Positions 15,740 through 31,344 of a stretch of 64,000 bases of DNA are shown here, one piece after another. Origin of the DNA: an uncultured Collinsella sp. (GTDB lineage: Bacteria > Actinomycetota > Coriobacteriia > Coriobacteriales > Coriobacteriaceae); NCBI GenBank assembly GCA_949285915.1, contig CASDZW010000022.1, positions 1 through 64,000 of the forward strand, read 5' to 3'. The notes beneath the pieces were generated by a model. The model ran no database searches and was not told the origin of the DNA. It worked only from the letters and a program-made list of their open reading frames with translations. The position numbers were made by a program, and so were the translations under genes. The stretch's first letter is position 1, and each line of letters begins with the position of its first letter.

Positions 15740-16474
15740 TTAGGCGGCGGGCGCGAACAGCTTGATGAGGCGGACCATGGTGCCCTGCACGTCCGTGCGA
15801 CGCTTGACCTCGGCGCTATCGACGAGCATCCTCATGAGTTTGATGCCGCGGCCGCGCTCCTCGGACTCGGCAACGTCCTCGTCGGGTGCGATCTCAAAAC
15901 CGCCGCCGCAATCGCACACCTCGATGACGACCCGGTCCTCGTAGGCGCGCACGTTGAGCACGCAGCCGGCGGCGCCCGCATGGTCGTACGCGTTGCCGAG
16001 CGCCTCCCCCGCCGCGAGCGCCGTGTCGTACACCGCGTCGCGCCCCAAAGGCAGCGTCTCCAACAGCTCCACCACACGGTGCCGGTACAGGCCAAGGTGC
16101 TCGACACCCTCCGCGACCGAGATACTGCGGCTCCACACCGGAAGCGTCCCCGGAGAGAGCACGGGCACGGGCGGGCGGTCGCGCGCCGTCACGTGCAGCA
16201 CGCTGATGAGGCGGGCGATCTGGAGAAAGCGCGACACCTCGGCAGAGACGTTCACGAGCGAGAGCATACCGCCCTCTTGCATGAGCCGCCGCGCACGGGA
16301 GAGCAAAAACGCAAGCCCGGTTGAATCGATGAAGGTTACGTTTTCGCAGTTAAGCAGGATGCGCCTCGTCCCCGCGGCGATAAGGGAATCCACCTCGCTG
16401 CGAAGACCGGGCACCGTTGCGATATCGATATCGCTCACGGGCGCCAAAACGGCTATGTCCATCCATTCACGCAT
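15740..16474 (-). CDS. fused STAS anti-anti-sigma / RsbW-type kinase protein
   Basis: A 244-residue protein joining two normally separate partners. Residues about 5-95 form a STAS domain with the SpoIIAA/RsbV phosphorylation motif FIDSTGLAFL (Ser51). Residues about 115-240 form a GHKL ATPase like SpoIIAB/RsbW: N-box EALGNAYDH (Asn161), G1 box CDCGGGF (residues 187-193), G2 box RGRGIKLM. In known systems the kinase phosphorylates the STAS serine and a PP2C phosphatase removes it. The phosphatase gene lies 82 bp upstream, in the same direction. No sigma factor is in the window. Both halves look catalytically intact. Confidence 0.88.
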   Translation of the reverse strand: MREWMDIAVLAPVSDIDIATVPGLRSEVDSLIAAGTRRILLNCENVTFIDSTGLAFLLSRARRLMQEGGMLSLVNVSAEVSRFLQIARLISVLHVTARDRPPVPVLSPGTLPVWSRSISVAEGVEHLGLYRHRVVELLETLPLGRDAVYDTALAAGEALGNAYDHAGAAGCVLNVRAYEDRVVIEVCDCGGGFEIAPDEDVAESEERGRGIKLMRMLVDSAEVKRRTDVQGTMVRLIKLFAPAA

Positions 16475-16556
16475 ACGCTCATGGTTCCCGCCACAAGCGC
16501 CGCTTAATCACCCGTACCGCCAAACGGAGGTGCTCGGCGGCGCAGGCGGCGCGGCG

Positions 16557-18908
16557 TCAGTCAAAGCGCAGAGCGACCATGGCGATGTCGTCCTCGAGCG
16601 CGGAGTCGGTAAACGCGTCGAGCTCGCCGAGGACGCGCTGGCATAGGCCGTTGACCCCCTGCCCCACCGAGGAGATCACCACGTCGCGCAGACGCTGCTC
16701 GCCAAAGAACTCGCCCGCGGCGTTGCGCGCCTCGATGGCGCCGTCGGTGTACATGAAGAGCACGTCACCCGTATCGAAACGGAACGACCCGCTGCGAAAA
16801 GCCATGCCCTCAAAAGCGCCCACCACGCCCGACTGCGTGCTCAGAAGCTCAACCTCGGTCGCCTGGGCACGGGTCTGGCCACCGGCATCCAAGGTGTGGT
16901 TGCGCACGAGCATCGAAGGGGGATGTCCGGCGGAGCAGTAAAGGGCGCTGCGGTAGCGCAGGTCGATCTTGGCAACGAACATCGTGGCGAAGGTCTCCAC
17001 ACGCGAGAAGCTCATGAGCATGCTGTTGAGCGAGCGTACCATGTGCACCGGGCTCGCCCCCTCCCACGCGTAGGCCGTGAGCGCGGTCTTGACCAGGGCC
17101 GACATGGAGGCCGCCTCGACGCCCTTGCCCGACACATCGCCCAGAATCATGACGGCGCGGTCGTCGGGCAGGCGGATAAGCGTGTAGAAGTCGCCGCCCA
17201 CGAGCGCCTGGCGCGTGGCGGAGGAGTAGAGCGCGTCTGTGGTGATACCCGGCACGACACCGAGCGAGCTCTGCATGCCGCTCTGGAGGGCCTGAGCGAT
17301 ATGGCGGTCCTCGCTCTTCTGCTCCTCGCGGCGGAAGAGGAGCTCGAACTCGTGGGTGAGGCGGACGAGATAGTCGTATTCCACATCGTCGATGGGTTCC
17401 TGGGTCCCGTCGCGCAAAAGCAGGACGAGTGGCGTCATAGCAGAGGGGGACCCGGGCGCTGCGAGCGCAAGCGCGCTGGGCTCCGACTCCTCGCCCTCGT
17501 CCAAAGCGGCGCCGTCCGGCGCGAACTCGATGAAGACGCCCTGGTTGGGCAGCCCGTGCGCAAGCAGCCACTCCCCCGCATGGGAGAGGCGGTCGATACG
17601 CGTGACGCGCGCGAACTCGAGCCCGTCCTCCTCCGGGGCCCCCGCGGCAAAGTAGTCGCTCACCACAGGGCTCACCTTAGCCGCCGGCGCGGTACTCCCC
17701 CCGCCGAGCCACTCGGGGCCGCCGGGGAGCGCCACCTGGCTGCCGCCCTCGTAATCGAGTACGTAGCACCCGCGCTCCGCATCAAAGACGACCGGGCAGA
17801 TATGGCAGGAAAGGACGCGCCGCACCTCGGCCGAGATCTCTGCCCAGGCGCTCGTGCGGTCGCCCTCCAGGGTGAAGACGGTGTCGCGGACGTTGTTGAG
17901 CGAGCGCGTGAGCTCGGCCGAGCGGCGCGAGCGCATGCTCGTGATGAGGCTCACGAGCTCGATGGAGAGGTAGTCGCAGGTCACCTCGAGCACGTTGACA
18001 TCGTAGTCGCGCGGACGGCACGGGCGGCCCCAACCGAGCTCCATAATGCCCATGATCTGGCGACCGAAGAAGACCGGCACGGCGATGAGCGTCTTGAAGG
18101 GCGGCACATCCTGCACGCGCAGAGGGCGCGTCTCGCGATGGTCGATGTCGTAAAAGACACCGCTCGAGGCCATCCCCTCCTCCGCCGGCACGACCGAGAT
18201 GCGGCAGGCGCGGGCCTCGCGCAGCACGTAGGTAGGGATTCCCGCGCCAAAGGGGATGAACTCGGGCACGAAGGAGCGCGTAAGACTCTGCGAGATGCCG
18301 CGGAGCTTGAAGCCACCGTTCTCGGCAAAGTACATGGTCGAGCCGTCTGCGTCGAGCGCGTCGACGAGCTTGTTTAAAACCGAATCGAGAAGCCCTGAGA
18401 GGTCCTCGGCGCCCACGGTTGCCATAATGACCGAAAGGGTGCCCGAAAGGCGCTTGTTGGCCGTCTGGAGCTCCGAGAGGACGCGGCGCATCTGGCGGTC
18501 GCGCGCATACTGCTCGGCGAGGCTGCGCACCACCACGAGCACGCGCTCGCGCGGTGCGAGACGGCGGACGATCTTGCGGCGGATATCGCTGGAGCGCGCC
18601 GAGGGCGCAGTTGCGCGGACCTCGACGGGGATGAAGGACCCGTCGTTGAGCTTGAGCCTGAGCGTGGTTGGCTCGCCTTTGAGCGGGAAGGGCAGGTGAT
18701 GGTCCTGGGCGCGCTCGAACGCGTCGGAGAACAGGAGGTCCTTGATGTCAGACCCCACAAGCGTCCGGCGGTCCTTGCCGGAGAGCTCGCAGAAGCGCTG
18801 GTTCACATGGCCGATGGAGCCGTCGAGGCCGCATACGGCAACCGCATCGCTTGTCAGCTCGACCAGCTGCGAGATCTTGGGCAGATCCTCGTGCGCGTCG
18901 CTCGCCAT
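16557..18908 (-). CDS. PAS-GAF-SpoIIE/PP2C serine phosphatase
   Basis: A 783-residue regulator. A PAS domain lies near residues 10-105 (ELTSDAVAVCGLDGSIGHVN...FCELSG), a GAF-like sensor around 160-330, a poorly conserved middle, and a SpoIIE-type PP2C phosphatase from about 590 to the end with GGDFYTLI, GDVSGKGVEA, SAGHPPSMLV and FMYTDGAIEARN. The metal-binding aspartates are present. Family members dephosphorylate STAS proteins in partner switching; the fused STAS-kinase is encoded next. Start at 18908 follows GGGGAGGGG; the longer frame would enter tRNA-Leu. Lacks predicted membrane segments, so sensing is likely cytoplasmic. Confidence 0.88.
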   Translation of the reverse strand: MASDAHEDLPKISQLVELTSDAVAVCGLDGSIGHVNQRFCELSGKDRRTLVGSDIKDLLFSDAFERAQDHHLPFPLKGEPTTLRLKLNDGSFIPVEVRATAPSARSSDIRRKIVRRLAPRERVLVVVRSLAEQYARDRQMRRVLSELQTANKRLSGTLSVIMATVGAEDLSGLLDSVLNKLVDALDADGSTMYFAENGGFKLRGISQSLTRSFVPEFIPFGAGIPTYVLREARACRISVVPAEEGMASSGVFYDIDHRETRPLRVQDVPPFKTLIAVPVFFGRQIMGIMELGWGRPCRPRDYDVNVLEVTCDYLSIELVSLITSMRSRRSAELTRSLNNVRDTVFTLEGDRTSAWAEISAEVRRVLSCHICPVVFDAERGCYVLDYEGGSQVALPGGPEWLGGGSTAPAAKVSPVVSDYFAAGAPEEDGLEFARVTRIDRLSHAGEWLLAHGLPNQGVFIEFAPDGAALDEGEESEPSALALAAPGSPSAMTPLVLLLRDGTQEPIDDVEYDYLVRLTHEFELLFRREEQKSEDRHIAQALQSGMQSSLGVVPGITTDALYSSATRQALVGGDFYTLIRLPDDRAVMILGDVSGKGVEAASMSALVKTALTAYAWEGASPVHMVRSLNSMLMSFSRVETFATMFVAKIDLRYRSALYCSAGHPPSMLVRNHTLDAGGQTRAQATEVELLSTQSGVVGAFEGMAFRSGSFRFDTGDVLFMYTDGAIEARNAAGEFFGEQRLRDVVISSVGQGVNGLCQRVLGELDAFTDSALEDDIAMVALRFD

Positions 18909-18990: not shown

Positions 18991-19012
18991 AAAAAAGCCT
19001 CCGAAGAGGCTC
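18991..19012 (-). terminator. terminator of tRNA-Leu
   Basis: On the minus strand GAGCCTC-TTCG-GAGGCTTTTTT: stem, tetraloop and T-run, 10 bp past the tRNA. Confidence 0.9.
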
Positions 19013-19022
19013 GTGTATTCGA

Positions 19023-19112
19023 TGGTGTCGGAGGCGGGACTTGAACCCGCATGACCGAGATGTGGTCACTAGCACCTCAAGCTAGCGCGTCTGCCAATTC
19101 CGCCACTCCGAC
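19023..19112 (-). tRNA. tRNA-Leu (GAG)
   Basis: Class II tRNA with long variable arm: acceptor GTCGGAG/CTCCGAC, anticodon stem CTAGC/GCTAG with loop TTGAGGT (anticodon GAG), variable stem around ACCACATCTCGGT, T-arm GGTTCAAGTCC, encoded CCA. Confidence 0.95.
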
Positions 19113-29049: not shown

Positions 29050-30615
29050 CTACTCCTCGACGGCGAGCACGCGACCGGTCATCTCGGCGGAGGGCTCGAG
29101 ACCGGCGAGCGTGAGCATCGTCGGCGCGATGTCCGAAAGACGCCCGTCCTCAATGCCGGTGAGCTTGGCTGCCGGATCAACCACAATGAAGGGCACGCGG
29201 TTGGTCGTGTGGGCGGTGAAGGGGTGCTTCTCGCCCGACTCGTCCTCGTCGTACATGTGGTCGGCGTTGCCGTGGTCAGCCGTGATAAGCGCGAAGCCGC
29301 CCTTGGCGAGAATCGCCGGGATGACCTTCGACAGGCCGTCGTCCACAGCCTCGACCGCCTTGACGGCAGCGTCGAAGACGCCCGTGTGACCGACCATGTC
29401 GCAGTTTGCGTAGTTCACGATGTAGAAGTCGGCGCGGTCCTCGTTGATGGCCTCGACGAGCTTCTCGGTAACCTCCGGCTCGCTCATCTCGGGCTGCAGG
29501 TCGTAGGTAGCGACCTTGGGCGAGGGAACGAGCACGCGCTCCTCCCCCTCCTTGGGCTCCTCGACGCCGCCGTTCAGGAAGAACGTCACGTGAGCGTACT
29601 TCTCGGTCTCGGCGGTATGAAGCTGCTTGAGCCCGTTCTGGGCGATGACGTCGGCAAGCACGTTCTCCGGGAAGGTCTTGGGGAACGCGACCTCCACGTT
29701 GGTGAAGGTGTCGTCGTACTCCGTCATGGTGACGAAGTGGCTGAGCTTCGGCGCGACCTTGCGCTCGAAACCGTCAAAGTCGGTCTCGGTGAAGGCGCGG
29801 GTCATCTCGCGGGCGCGGTCGGGACGGAAGTTGAAGAACACCATCGCGTCGCCGTCTGCAACACCTTCGTTATGGCAGGCGAAGGGCTCGACGAACTCGT
29901 CGCCGCGCTCGTCACGCTCGTAGTAGGCCTTGACGCCCTCGACCGGGTCGCACTCGGTGTCGGAAGGCAGGGTGACCACATCGTAGGCGCGCTCGACGCG
30001 CTCCCAGCGGTTGTCGCGGTCCATGGCCCAGTAACGACCGGAGACGGTGGCAATGCGCGCATCGACGCCGGTGTACTTGGAGAGCGCCTCGAGGTTCTCC
30101 TTCAGGGTCTCGATGTAGCCGGCACCGGAGTGCGGATCCACGTCGCGACCGTCCATGAAGCAGTGGAAGCGCACGCGCTCCACACCGTGCATGGCGGCGA
30201 TGGCGGCGAGGTTCTCACCATGGCGCTGCATGGAGTGGACGCCGCCCGGGGAGACGAGGCCGAGCAGGTGCAGGGTCGCGCCCTTCTTGGCAACGTCGTC
30301 CATAGCCTTGGCGAGGGTGGCGTTCTCCTGGATGGAGCCGTCCTTGATGGCGTTGTTGATGCGGCTGAGCTCCTGGAACACGATACGACCAGCGCCGATG
30401 TTCAGGTGGCCGACCTCGGAGTTGCCCATCTGACCGTCAGGCAGGCCCACGTCCTCGCCCGAAGCGCCGAGCGTGGTATGCGGGTACTCGTTCCAGAGCT
30501 TGTCGAGGAACGGCTTGTTCGCCTTGTAGACGGCGTTGTTGTCGCCCGCGGGAGCGAGGCCAAAGCCGTCCATGATCACGAGGAGCGCCGGAAGGTGACG
30601 CTTGTTCTCTGCCAT
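29050..30615 (-). CDS. gpmI: 2,3-bisphosphoglycerate-independent phosphoglycerate mutase
   Basis: A 521-residue enzyme interconverting 3- and 2-phosphoglycerate with two manganese ions. The alkaline-phosphatase-like motifs are present: VIMDGFGLAP, the catalytic serine in QMGNSEVGHLNIGAGR, the VHSMQRHGENL and FMDGRDVDPHS segments, and TADHGNADHM near the C-terminus. Its start overlaps the tpiA stop (TAATG). Part of gap-pgk-tpiA-gpmI. Confidence 0.97.
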   Translation of the reverse strand: MAENKRHLPALLVIMDGFGLAPAGDNNAVYKANKPFLDKLWNEYPHTTLGASGEDVGLPDGQMGNSEVGHLNIGAGRIVFQELSRINNAIKDGSIQENATLAKAMDDVAKKGATLHLLGLVSPGGVHSMQRHGENLAAIAAMHGVERVRFHCFMDGRDVDPHSGAGYIETLKENLEALSKYTGVDARIATVSGRYWAMDRDNRWERVERAYDVVTLPSDTECDPVEGVKAYYERDERGDEFVEPFACHNEGVADGDAMVFFNFRPDRAREMTRAFTETDFDGFERKVAPKLSHFVTMTEYDDTFTNVEVAFPKTFPENVLADVIAQNGLKQLHTAETEKYAHVTFFLNGGVEEPKEGEERVLVPSPKVATYDLQPEMSEPEVTEKLVEAINEDRADFYIVNYANCDMVGHTGVFDAAVKAVEAVDDGLSKVIPAILAKGGFALITADHGNADHMYDEDESGEKHPFTAHTTNRVPFIVVDPAAKLTGIEDGRLSDIAPTMLTLAGLEPSAEMTGRVLAVEE

Positions 30616-31344
30616 TACTCAGCCGCCTTCTCAACCATCGCAGCGAAGCTGTCGGCCTTGAGCGAGGCACCGCCCACGAGCGCGCCGTCGACGTCCTCCT
30701 TCTCGAGGAAGCCAGCGATGTTCTCGGGCTTGGCGGAGCCGCCGTACAGGACGCGGATGCCAGCCGCGGTCTCCTCGCCGAAGATCTCGGTGAGCGTGGC
30801 GCGGATGGCGCCGCAGACCTCCTGGGCGTCATCGGCCGTGGCGGTCTTGCCGGTGCCGATGGCCCAGATGGGCTCGTAGGCGATCACGTACTTGGAGGGG
30901 TCGGTGATCTCGAGGCCCTCGGTGTCCTTCTTGATCTGGCTCAAGGGACTCGCCGCAGCAGCTGATCGGCACGATGCCGGCAGCCATGAGAGCCTTGGCC
31001 TTCTTGTTGACGTCCTCGTCCGTCTCATGGAAGTAGTCGCGACGCTCGGAGTGACCGATGATGCAGTACTCGGCGTTGACGGACTTCAGCATGTCGCACG
31101 AGGTCTCGCCGGTGTAGGCACCGGAGGCCTCCCAGTAGACGTTCTGGGCGCCCAGCTTGATGGCGGAATCGGCGACCTTGTGCGAGGTGCACGCAAGGTC
31201 GATGGTGGGCGGGCAGATGACGACCTCGACGGAATCGGAAGCCGGGACCTGCTCGACGAGCGCCTCGGCGAGCTCCTTGGCGGCCGGGACGTCGTTGTTC
31301 ATCTTCCAGTTGCCTGCGATGAGGCGGGTACGCTTACTCGGCAT
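30615..31344 (-). pseudogene. tpiA: triosephosphate isomerase, frameshifted by an internal deletion
   Basis: Two frames together make most of TpiA. The first (from 31344) carries AGNWKMNND, the active-site histidine region [11 protein letters not shown] and CCGESLE; the second (to 30615) resumes at QIKKDTEGL and carries [14 protein letters not shown] (catalytic Glu) and YGGSAKPEN. At the junction near 30945-30950, GAG-C-CAG joins what in homologues are residues about 13 codons apart, so roughly 38 bp (not a multiple of three) are missing. The gene is essential for normal glycolysis, so this is either a true lesion compensated elsewhere or a sequence error. Its start overlaps the pgk stop by 11 nt. 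Confidence 0.85.

Follow-up and report, generated by a model that had tools for sequence, protein, structure and literature searches.

A conserved STAS-kinase fusion and its neighboring phosphatase in Collinsella: probable parts of a SigB/F-linked partner switch

Related Partner-Switching Systems

In partner-switching systems, the STAS antagonist and its kinase are usually separate proteins. The two switches of Bacillus subtilis, RsbP/RsbU-RsbV-RsbW-SigB and SpoIIE-SpoIIAA-SpoIIAB-SigF, combine a sensor-linked PP2C phosphatase, a STAS protein phosphorylated on serine, a GHKL kinase, and a SigB/F-type sigma factor. All of these parts have counterparts in the uncultured Collinsella described here. 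In B. subtilis, however, one protein serves as both kinase and anti-sigma factor and is encoded with the STAS and sigma genes, whereas in Collinsella the kinase and sigma-binding roles appear to be split and the sigma gene lies on another contig.

A split of this kind is known from Mycobacterium smegmatis, in which RsbW1 is a kinase-less anti-SigF factor and the antagonist RsfB is phosphorylated by another protein, RsbW2 (PMC7693655). The Collinsella genome likewise pairs a putative antagonist kinase with a distinct candidate anti-sigma factor, which, like RsbW1/UsfX, appears to lack the means for kinase function. On the other hand, RsbW2 and RsfB are separate proteins, while kinase and antagonist are fused here. 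M. smegmatis RsbW3 was considered as a possible fused antagonist and set aside, as it is described as a 194-aa RsbW homolog with a 30-aa N-terminal extension and a STAS domain is not mentioned (PMC7693655).

Rv1364c of M. tuberculosis (3KE6) carries PAS, PP2C, kinase (RsbW), and STAS (RsbV) modules in a single chain, and its own kinase is reported to phosphorylate the STAS domain, which its own phosphatase reverses (PMC9138534). The same four module types and a proposed link to SigF recur in Collinsella, the STAS phosphorylation and its reversal proposed below would match those of Rv1364c, and the kinase part of the fusion is detectably homologous to Rv1364c (E = 8.7e-6). In contrast to Rv1364c, the Collinsella phosphatase is a separate adjoining gene with an extra GAF domain, which places the locus outside the Rv1364c-type single-chain switches, and the domain order is STAS-kinase instead of kinase-STAS. 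Rv1364c is therefore a partial relative and was rejected as a strict one.

The STAS-Kinase Fusion

The window (the whole 64,000-nucleotide stretch analyzed, on contig C22) comes from a 1.88-Mb metagenome-assembled genome (MAG) that is 81.8% complete. The fusion gene and its parts are as follows:

15740 to 16474, minus strand: STAS-HATPase fusion protein, 244 aa (Pfam/NCBIfam, ortholog alignment)
16184 to 16459, minus strand: STAS domain, RsbV/SpoIIAA-like, residues 6-97, with Ser51 in DSTG (Pfam, TIGR00377, SpoIIAA alignment)
16322 to 16324, minus strand: codon of Ser51, the putative phospho-acceptor (invariant in 31/31 aligned orthologs)
16136 to 16183, minus strand: short interdomain linker, residues 98-113 (length constancy in orthologs)
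15761 to 16135, minus strand: RsbW-type GHKL kinase domain, residues 114-238, with E157, N161, D188/G190/G192, and G208-R-G210 (Pfam, alignments)

According to the open reading frame list, one uninterrupted frame spans the gene, and Pfam detects STAS (PF01740; residues 6-94, E = 1.1e-15) followed by HATPase_c_2 (PF13581; residues 124-238, E = 1.5e-16). The STAS part also scores above the NCBIfam cut-off for TIGR00377 (E = 1.5e-19), and Ser51 lies in a canonical DS(T)G motif aligned with the phospho-serine of SpoIIAA/RsbV. For a SigB/SigF partner switch, the fusion thus supplies a STAS antagonist with a conserved phospho-serine site (D50-S51 invariant in 31 orthologs) as well as a GHKL serine kinase with its motifs intact: E157/N161 (EALGNAYDH), D188-x-G-x-G192, and the G-x-G motif, G208-R-G. 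Arg131, in the first helix of the kinase domain, is invariant and aligns with an arginine of RsbW. The fusion is nevertheless not a canonical RsbW, that is, one stand-alone kinase and anti-sigma factor: its score against TIGR01924 (anti-sigma B factor) is 28 with a cut-off of 155, it is fused to STAS, and a separate anti-sigma candidate adjoins the sigma gene. An AlphaFold model (pLDDT 84.7, pTM 0.83) has two well-folded domains, and Foldseek matches RsbW, SpoIIAB, UsfX-complex, and STAS chains to one domain at a time.

A sequence-only reading of this DNA had described STAS (Ser51) and GHKL kinase as one 244-residue chain with both active sites apparently intact, and had named an annotation artifact joining two genes as one finding that would overturn it. 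The description holds, and the artifact is ruled out. Single-frame orthologs of 83-99% identity occur in isolate genomes, such as those of Collinsella sp. An307, An268, and An7; the closest named relatives are an uncultured Collinsella (99% identity) and An307 (98%). The survey of related genomes that the same reading had proposed found the fusion in 43 of 60 relatives, including every genome searched from the same family, and a profile search of the order found it at full length in 159 of 299 genomes (weakest match listed, E of about 1e-73). Nine further matches (E 4e-12 to 5e-11) were left out of this count as too weak. Weaker matches that extend over both domains, some of them in one frame, turn up in other families of the phylum.

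Selection has acted on both halves of the protein. D50, S51, R131, E157, N161, D188, G190, G192, G208, and G210 are invariant in 31 aligned orthologs with identities down to 30%. The dN/dS ratio is about 0.12-0.17 for the STAS domain and 0.09-0.17 for the kinase domain, indicating purifying selection, and rises to 0.3-0.7 in the looser 16-residue linker. The segment corresponding to residues 95-119 measures 25-27 residues in all 31 orthologs, so that linker length is constant within two residues. The invariant residues, low dN/dS, and constant linker length indicate that both active sites, and the short link between them, have been maintained. The fusion is old.

The Neighboring Phosphatase

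Upstream of the fusion, on the same strand, lie:

16557 to 18908, minus strand: PAS-GAF-SpoIIE (PP2C/PPM) phosphatase, 783 aa, with D573, D591, D722, and D773/D774 invariant (Pfam, alignment)
18995 to 19012, minus strand: terminator-like hairpin between tRNA-Leu and the phosphatase gene (pattern match; such matches are no commoner than in shuffled sequence)

The phosphatase frame ends at 16557, leaving 82 bp before the fusion start, the spacing that had been read from the sequence at the outset. The initial description of the product as a PAS-SpoIIE phosphatase was right on both domains but missed the GAF domain; Pfam detects SpoIIE (PF07228, E = 5.7e-45) along with PAS and GAF. The product thus provides the PP2C/SpoIIE phosphatase with a sensor domain found in SigB/SigF partner switches. 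D573, D591, D722, D773, and D774, which we take to be the metal ligands, are invariant among 25 aligned sequences. A start at 18908 (MASDAHED...) is preferred over an in-frame ATG at 19052, because the latter would overlap the tRNA-Leu gene. The putative hairpin would fit transcription of phosphatase and fusion as a unit of their own.

Among relatives whose contigs reach far enough, the phosphatase gene is nearly always upstream and on the same strand. Inspection of the locus in Collinsella sp. An7 (L046/G005; L152) found no phosphatase beside the fusion. In genus g6 (L095, L096), the phosphatase is near the fusion but on the opposite strand and has a long, low-complexity C-terminal extension.

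Elsewhere in the window, in a glycolytic cluster, the N-terminal and C-terminal parts of tpiA (triosephosphate isomerase; 30615-31330, minus strand) lie in different frames. This is probably a sequence error in the MAG, because the neighboring glycolytic genes look intact.

A Sigma Factor and a Candidate Anti-Sigma Factor on Another Contig

The sequence-only reading had noted that no sigma factor lies nearby. This is true of the fusion's contig, on which no sigma gene was found, but it is wrong for the genome as a whole. Four proteins with sigma-70 region 2 are encoded: RpoD and a 271-aa SigB/F-type protein (both on contig C20), an ECF-like protein (C26), and another (C16). Of these, only the 271-aa protein (C20:48110-48784) exceeds the TIGR02980 (SigB/F/G) cut-off. 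Its gene is directly preceded by one for a 120-aa HATPase-family protein (C20:47659-48018), so that the genome holds the anti-sigma candidate and SigB/F/G-type sigma factor of a SigB/SigF partner switch. Gene adjacency suggests that the two proteins bind each other.

In the PDB, a profile built from 21 orthologs of the 120-aa protein matches B. subtilis RsbW alone (E = 6.9e-6), and Pfam detects HATPase_c_2 only below threshold. Compared with RsbW, its N-box asparagine is replaced (EEAFIYA vs. EACTNA), it has lost the D-x-G-x-G motif, and nothing in it matches the G-x-G region. Because the ATP-site motifs are replaced or absent, this RsbW-fold protein should be incapable of kinase activity, like M. 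smegmatis RsbW1; its similarity to RsbW and the position of its gene beside a SigF-type sigma gene fit a kinase-dead anti-sigma factor of the UsfX/RsbW1 type. In this genome and in seven relatives of the same family (f1), no HATPase_c_2 protein other than the fusion matches strongly; the next matches are much weaker, and the anti-sigma candidate is a weak match or none.

Co-occurrence Across the Order

All counts of the fusion, the anti-sigma profile, and the SigB/F family refer to one set of 299 genomes from the order. The anti-sigma profile matches 161 of them, SigB/F proteins exceed the cut-off in 161, and the two genes are adjacent in the matches listed. The fusion and the anti-sigma/sigma pair are both present in 158 genomes and both missing from 137 (295 of 299 in agreement); one genome (G123) has only the fusion, and three have only the pair. 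The latter (G054, G272, and G294) are incomplete MAGs, 89-91% complete, in 40 to 470 contigs. By family, f1, f3, f5, and f8 have both the fusion and the pair, and the other families have neither. Because the split follows families, ancestry could account for much of the co-occurrence, which may reflect one or a few gain or loss events instead of function. It is supportive of a functional link, not proof of one.

G123 (L151; family f5; 98% complete) is a real exception. Its fusion and phosphatase are intact, but no SigB/F sigma factor or anti-sigma factor is detectable, and the one match to the sigma family is an RpoD-like protein; rewiring is possible. It also has four other strong HATPase_c_2 matches in long frames, and both of those read (L161 and L183; 892 and 953 aa) end in an RsbW-type ATPase domain. 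A SigF-type promoter joining the two loci was also considered and rejected: a search for the GTTT-N-GGGTA motif upstream of the phosphatase and anti-sigma genes found none shared and no enrichment.

Proposed Mechanism and Alternatives

The fusion and the phosphatase are likely to be the half of a SigF/SigB-type partner switch that handles sensing and phosphorylation, with an RsbW2-like kinase and an RsbV/RsfB-like antagonist in one chain. In unstressed cells with ATP available, Ser51 would be phosphorylated by the kinase domain, either in cis or between the two chains of a fusion dimer, and in that state the STAS domain would be unable to bind the anti-sigma factor. Input through PAS-GAF would activate the SpoIIE-type phosphatase, which would dephosphorylate Ser51. 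The unphosphorylated STAS domain, with its kinase still attached, would then capture the separate, putatively kinase-dead RsbW/UsfX-like protein (G000:C20) and so release the adjoining SigB/F-type sigma factor. We infer all of these phosphorylation, binding, and output steps from the domains, motif conservation, gene order, the C20 gene pair, and co-occurrence.

It had been argued at first that the fusion upsets switching, since its STAS domain cannot leave the kinase. This is probably not the key point, given that a separate, apparently kinase-dead anti-sigma factor and a SigB/F-type sigma factor co-occur with the fusion. The inability of the antagonist to leave its kinase is no longer a problem if the captured protein is a separate one: the STAS domain would go on exchanging partners in trans, through the anti-sigma factor, while its own kinase and the adjoining phosphatase would determine its phosphorylation state.

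Most relatives encode a second, stand-alone STAS protein elsewhere in the genome (about 105-126 aa, with a DST motif), for instance at L082:4878-5258 and L084:4935-5261, away from the sigma gene. This RsbV-like protein may be an extra substrate or antagonist, and the fusion kinase may phosphorylate it too. Its presence, together with the precedent of M. smegmatis RsbW2 as the kinase of a separate antagonist, RsfB (PMC7693655), raises the alternative that the fusion serves chiefly to phosphorylate the stand-alone protein, the real antagonist, and that the fused STAS domain is regulatory, acting for example as an autoinhibitory pseudo-substrate or as a docking site through which the kinase is tuned. 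This is unlikely, as the fused Ser51 and D-S-x-G are invariant down to 30% identity, as for a real phospho-acceptor, and no stand-alone STAS protein was found in the 82%-complete MAG itself.

The RsbW/SpoIIAB-like HATPase_c_2 domain and Arg131, with its RsbW counterpart, would also suit a fusion that binds sigma itself, as an anti-sigma factor with a built-in antagonist and hence a self-contained switch. This is highly improbable, however, given that in the genomes examined the sigma gene adjoins one for a dedicated RsbW-like protein and that M. smegmatis likewise splits anti-sigma factor from kinase (PMC7693655). Least credible is an output other than a sigma factor, with the fusion and phosphatase controlling another target as in the non-sigma switches SypE/SypA and SiaABC, for although the contig of the fusion has no sigma gene and G123 keeps the fusion-phosphatase pair without SigB/F, the fusion is found together with SigB/F and its ATP-site-less anti-sigma protein in the same genomes almost without exception.

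Taken as a whole, the locus is probably part of a conserved SigB/F-linked partner switch whose parts are divided in an unusual way. A more specific proposal, to which we give an even chance, is of a variant conserved across the Coriobacteriaceae and Atopobium-like families: the antagonist stays attached to its kinase at all times, and the partner of sigma is a separate, kinase-dead paralog. STAS phosphorylation would then serve as an intramolecular timer or latch, and the kinase domain would enter, and may shape, the complex of antagonist and anti-sigma factor.

Significance

A search of open papers returned nothing on a general-stress pathway in this gut bacterial group. If the partner-switch reading is right, it would provide a candidate pathway of that kind, with all parts named, for a major bacterial group of the human and animal gut. 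It would also extend beyond the mycobacteria the assignment of kinase and anti-sigma roles to two different RsbW-family proteins, and the tethered STAS domain would be a natural test case for whether a freely diffusing antagonist is required in partner switching.
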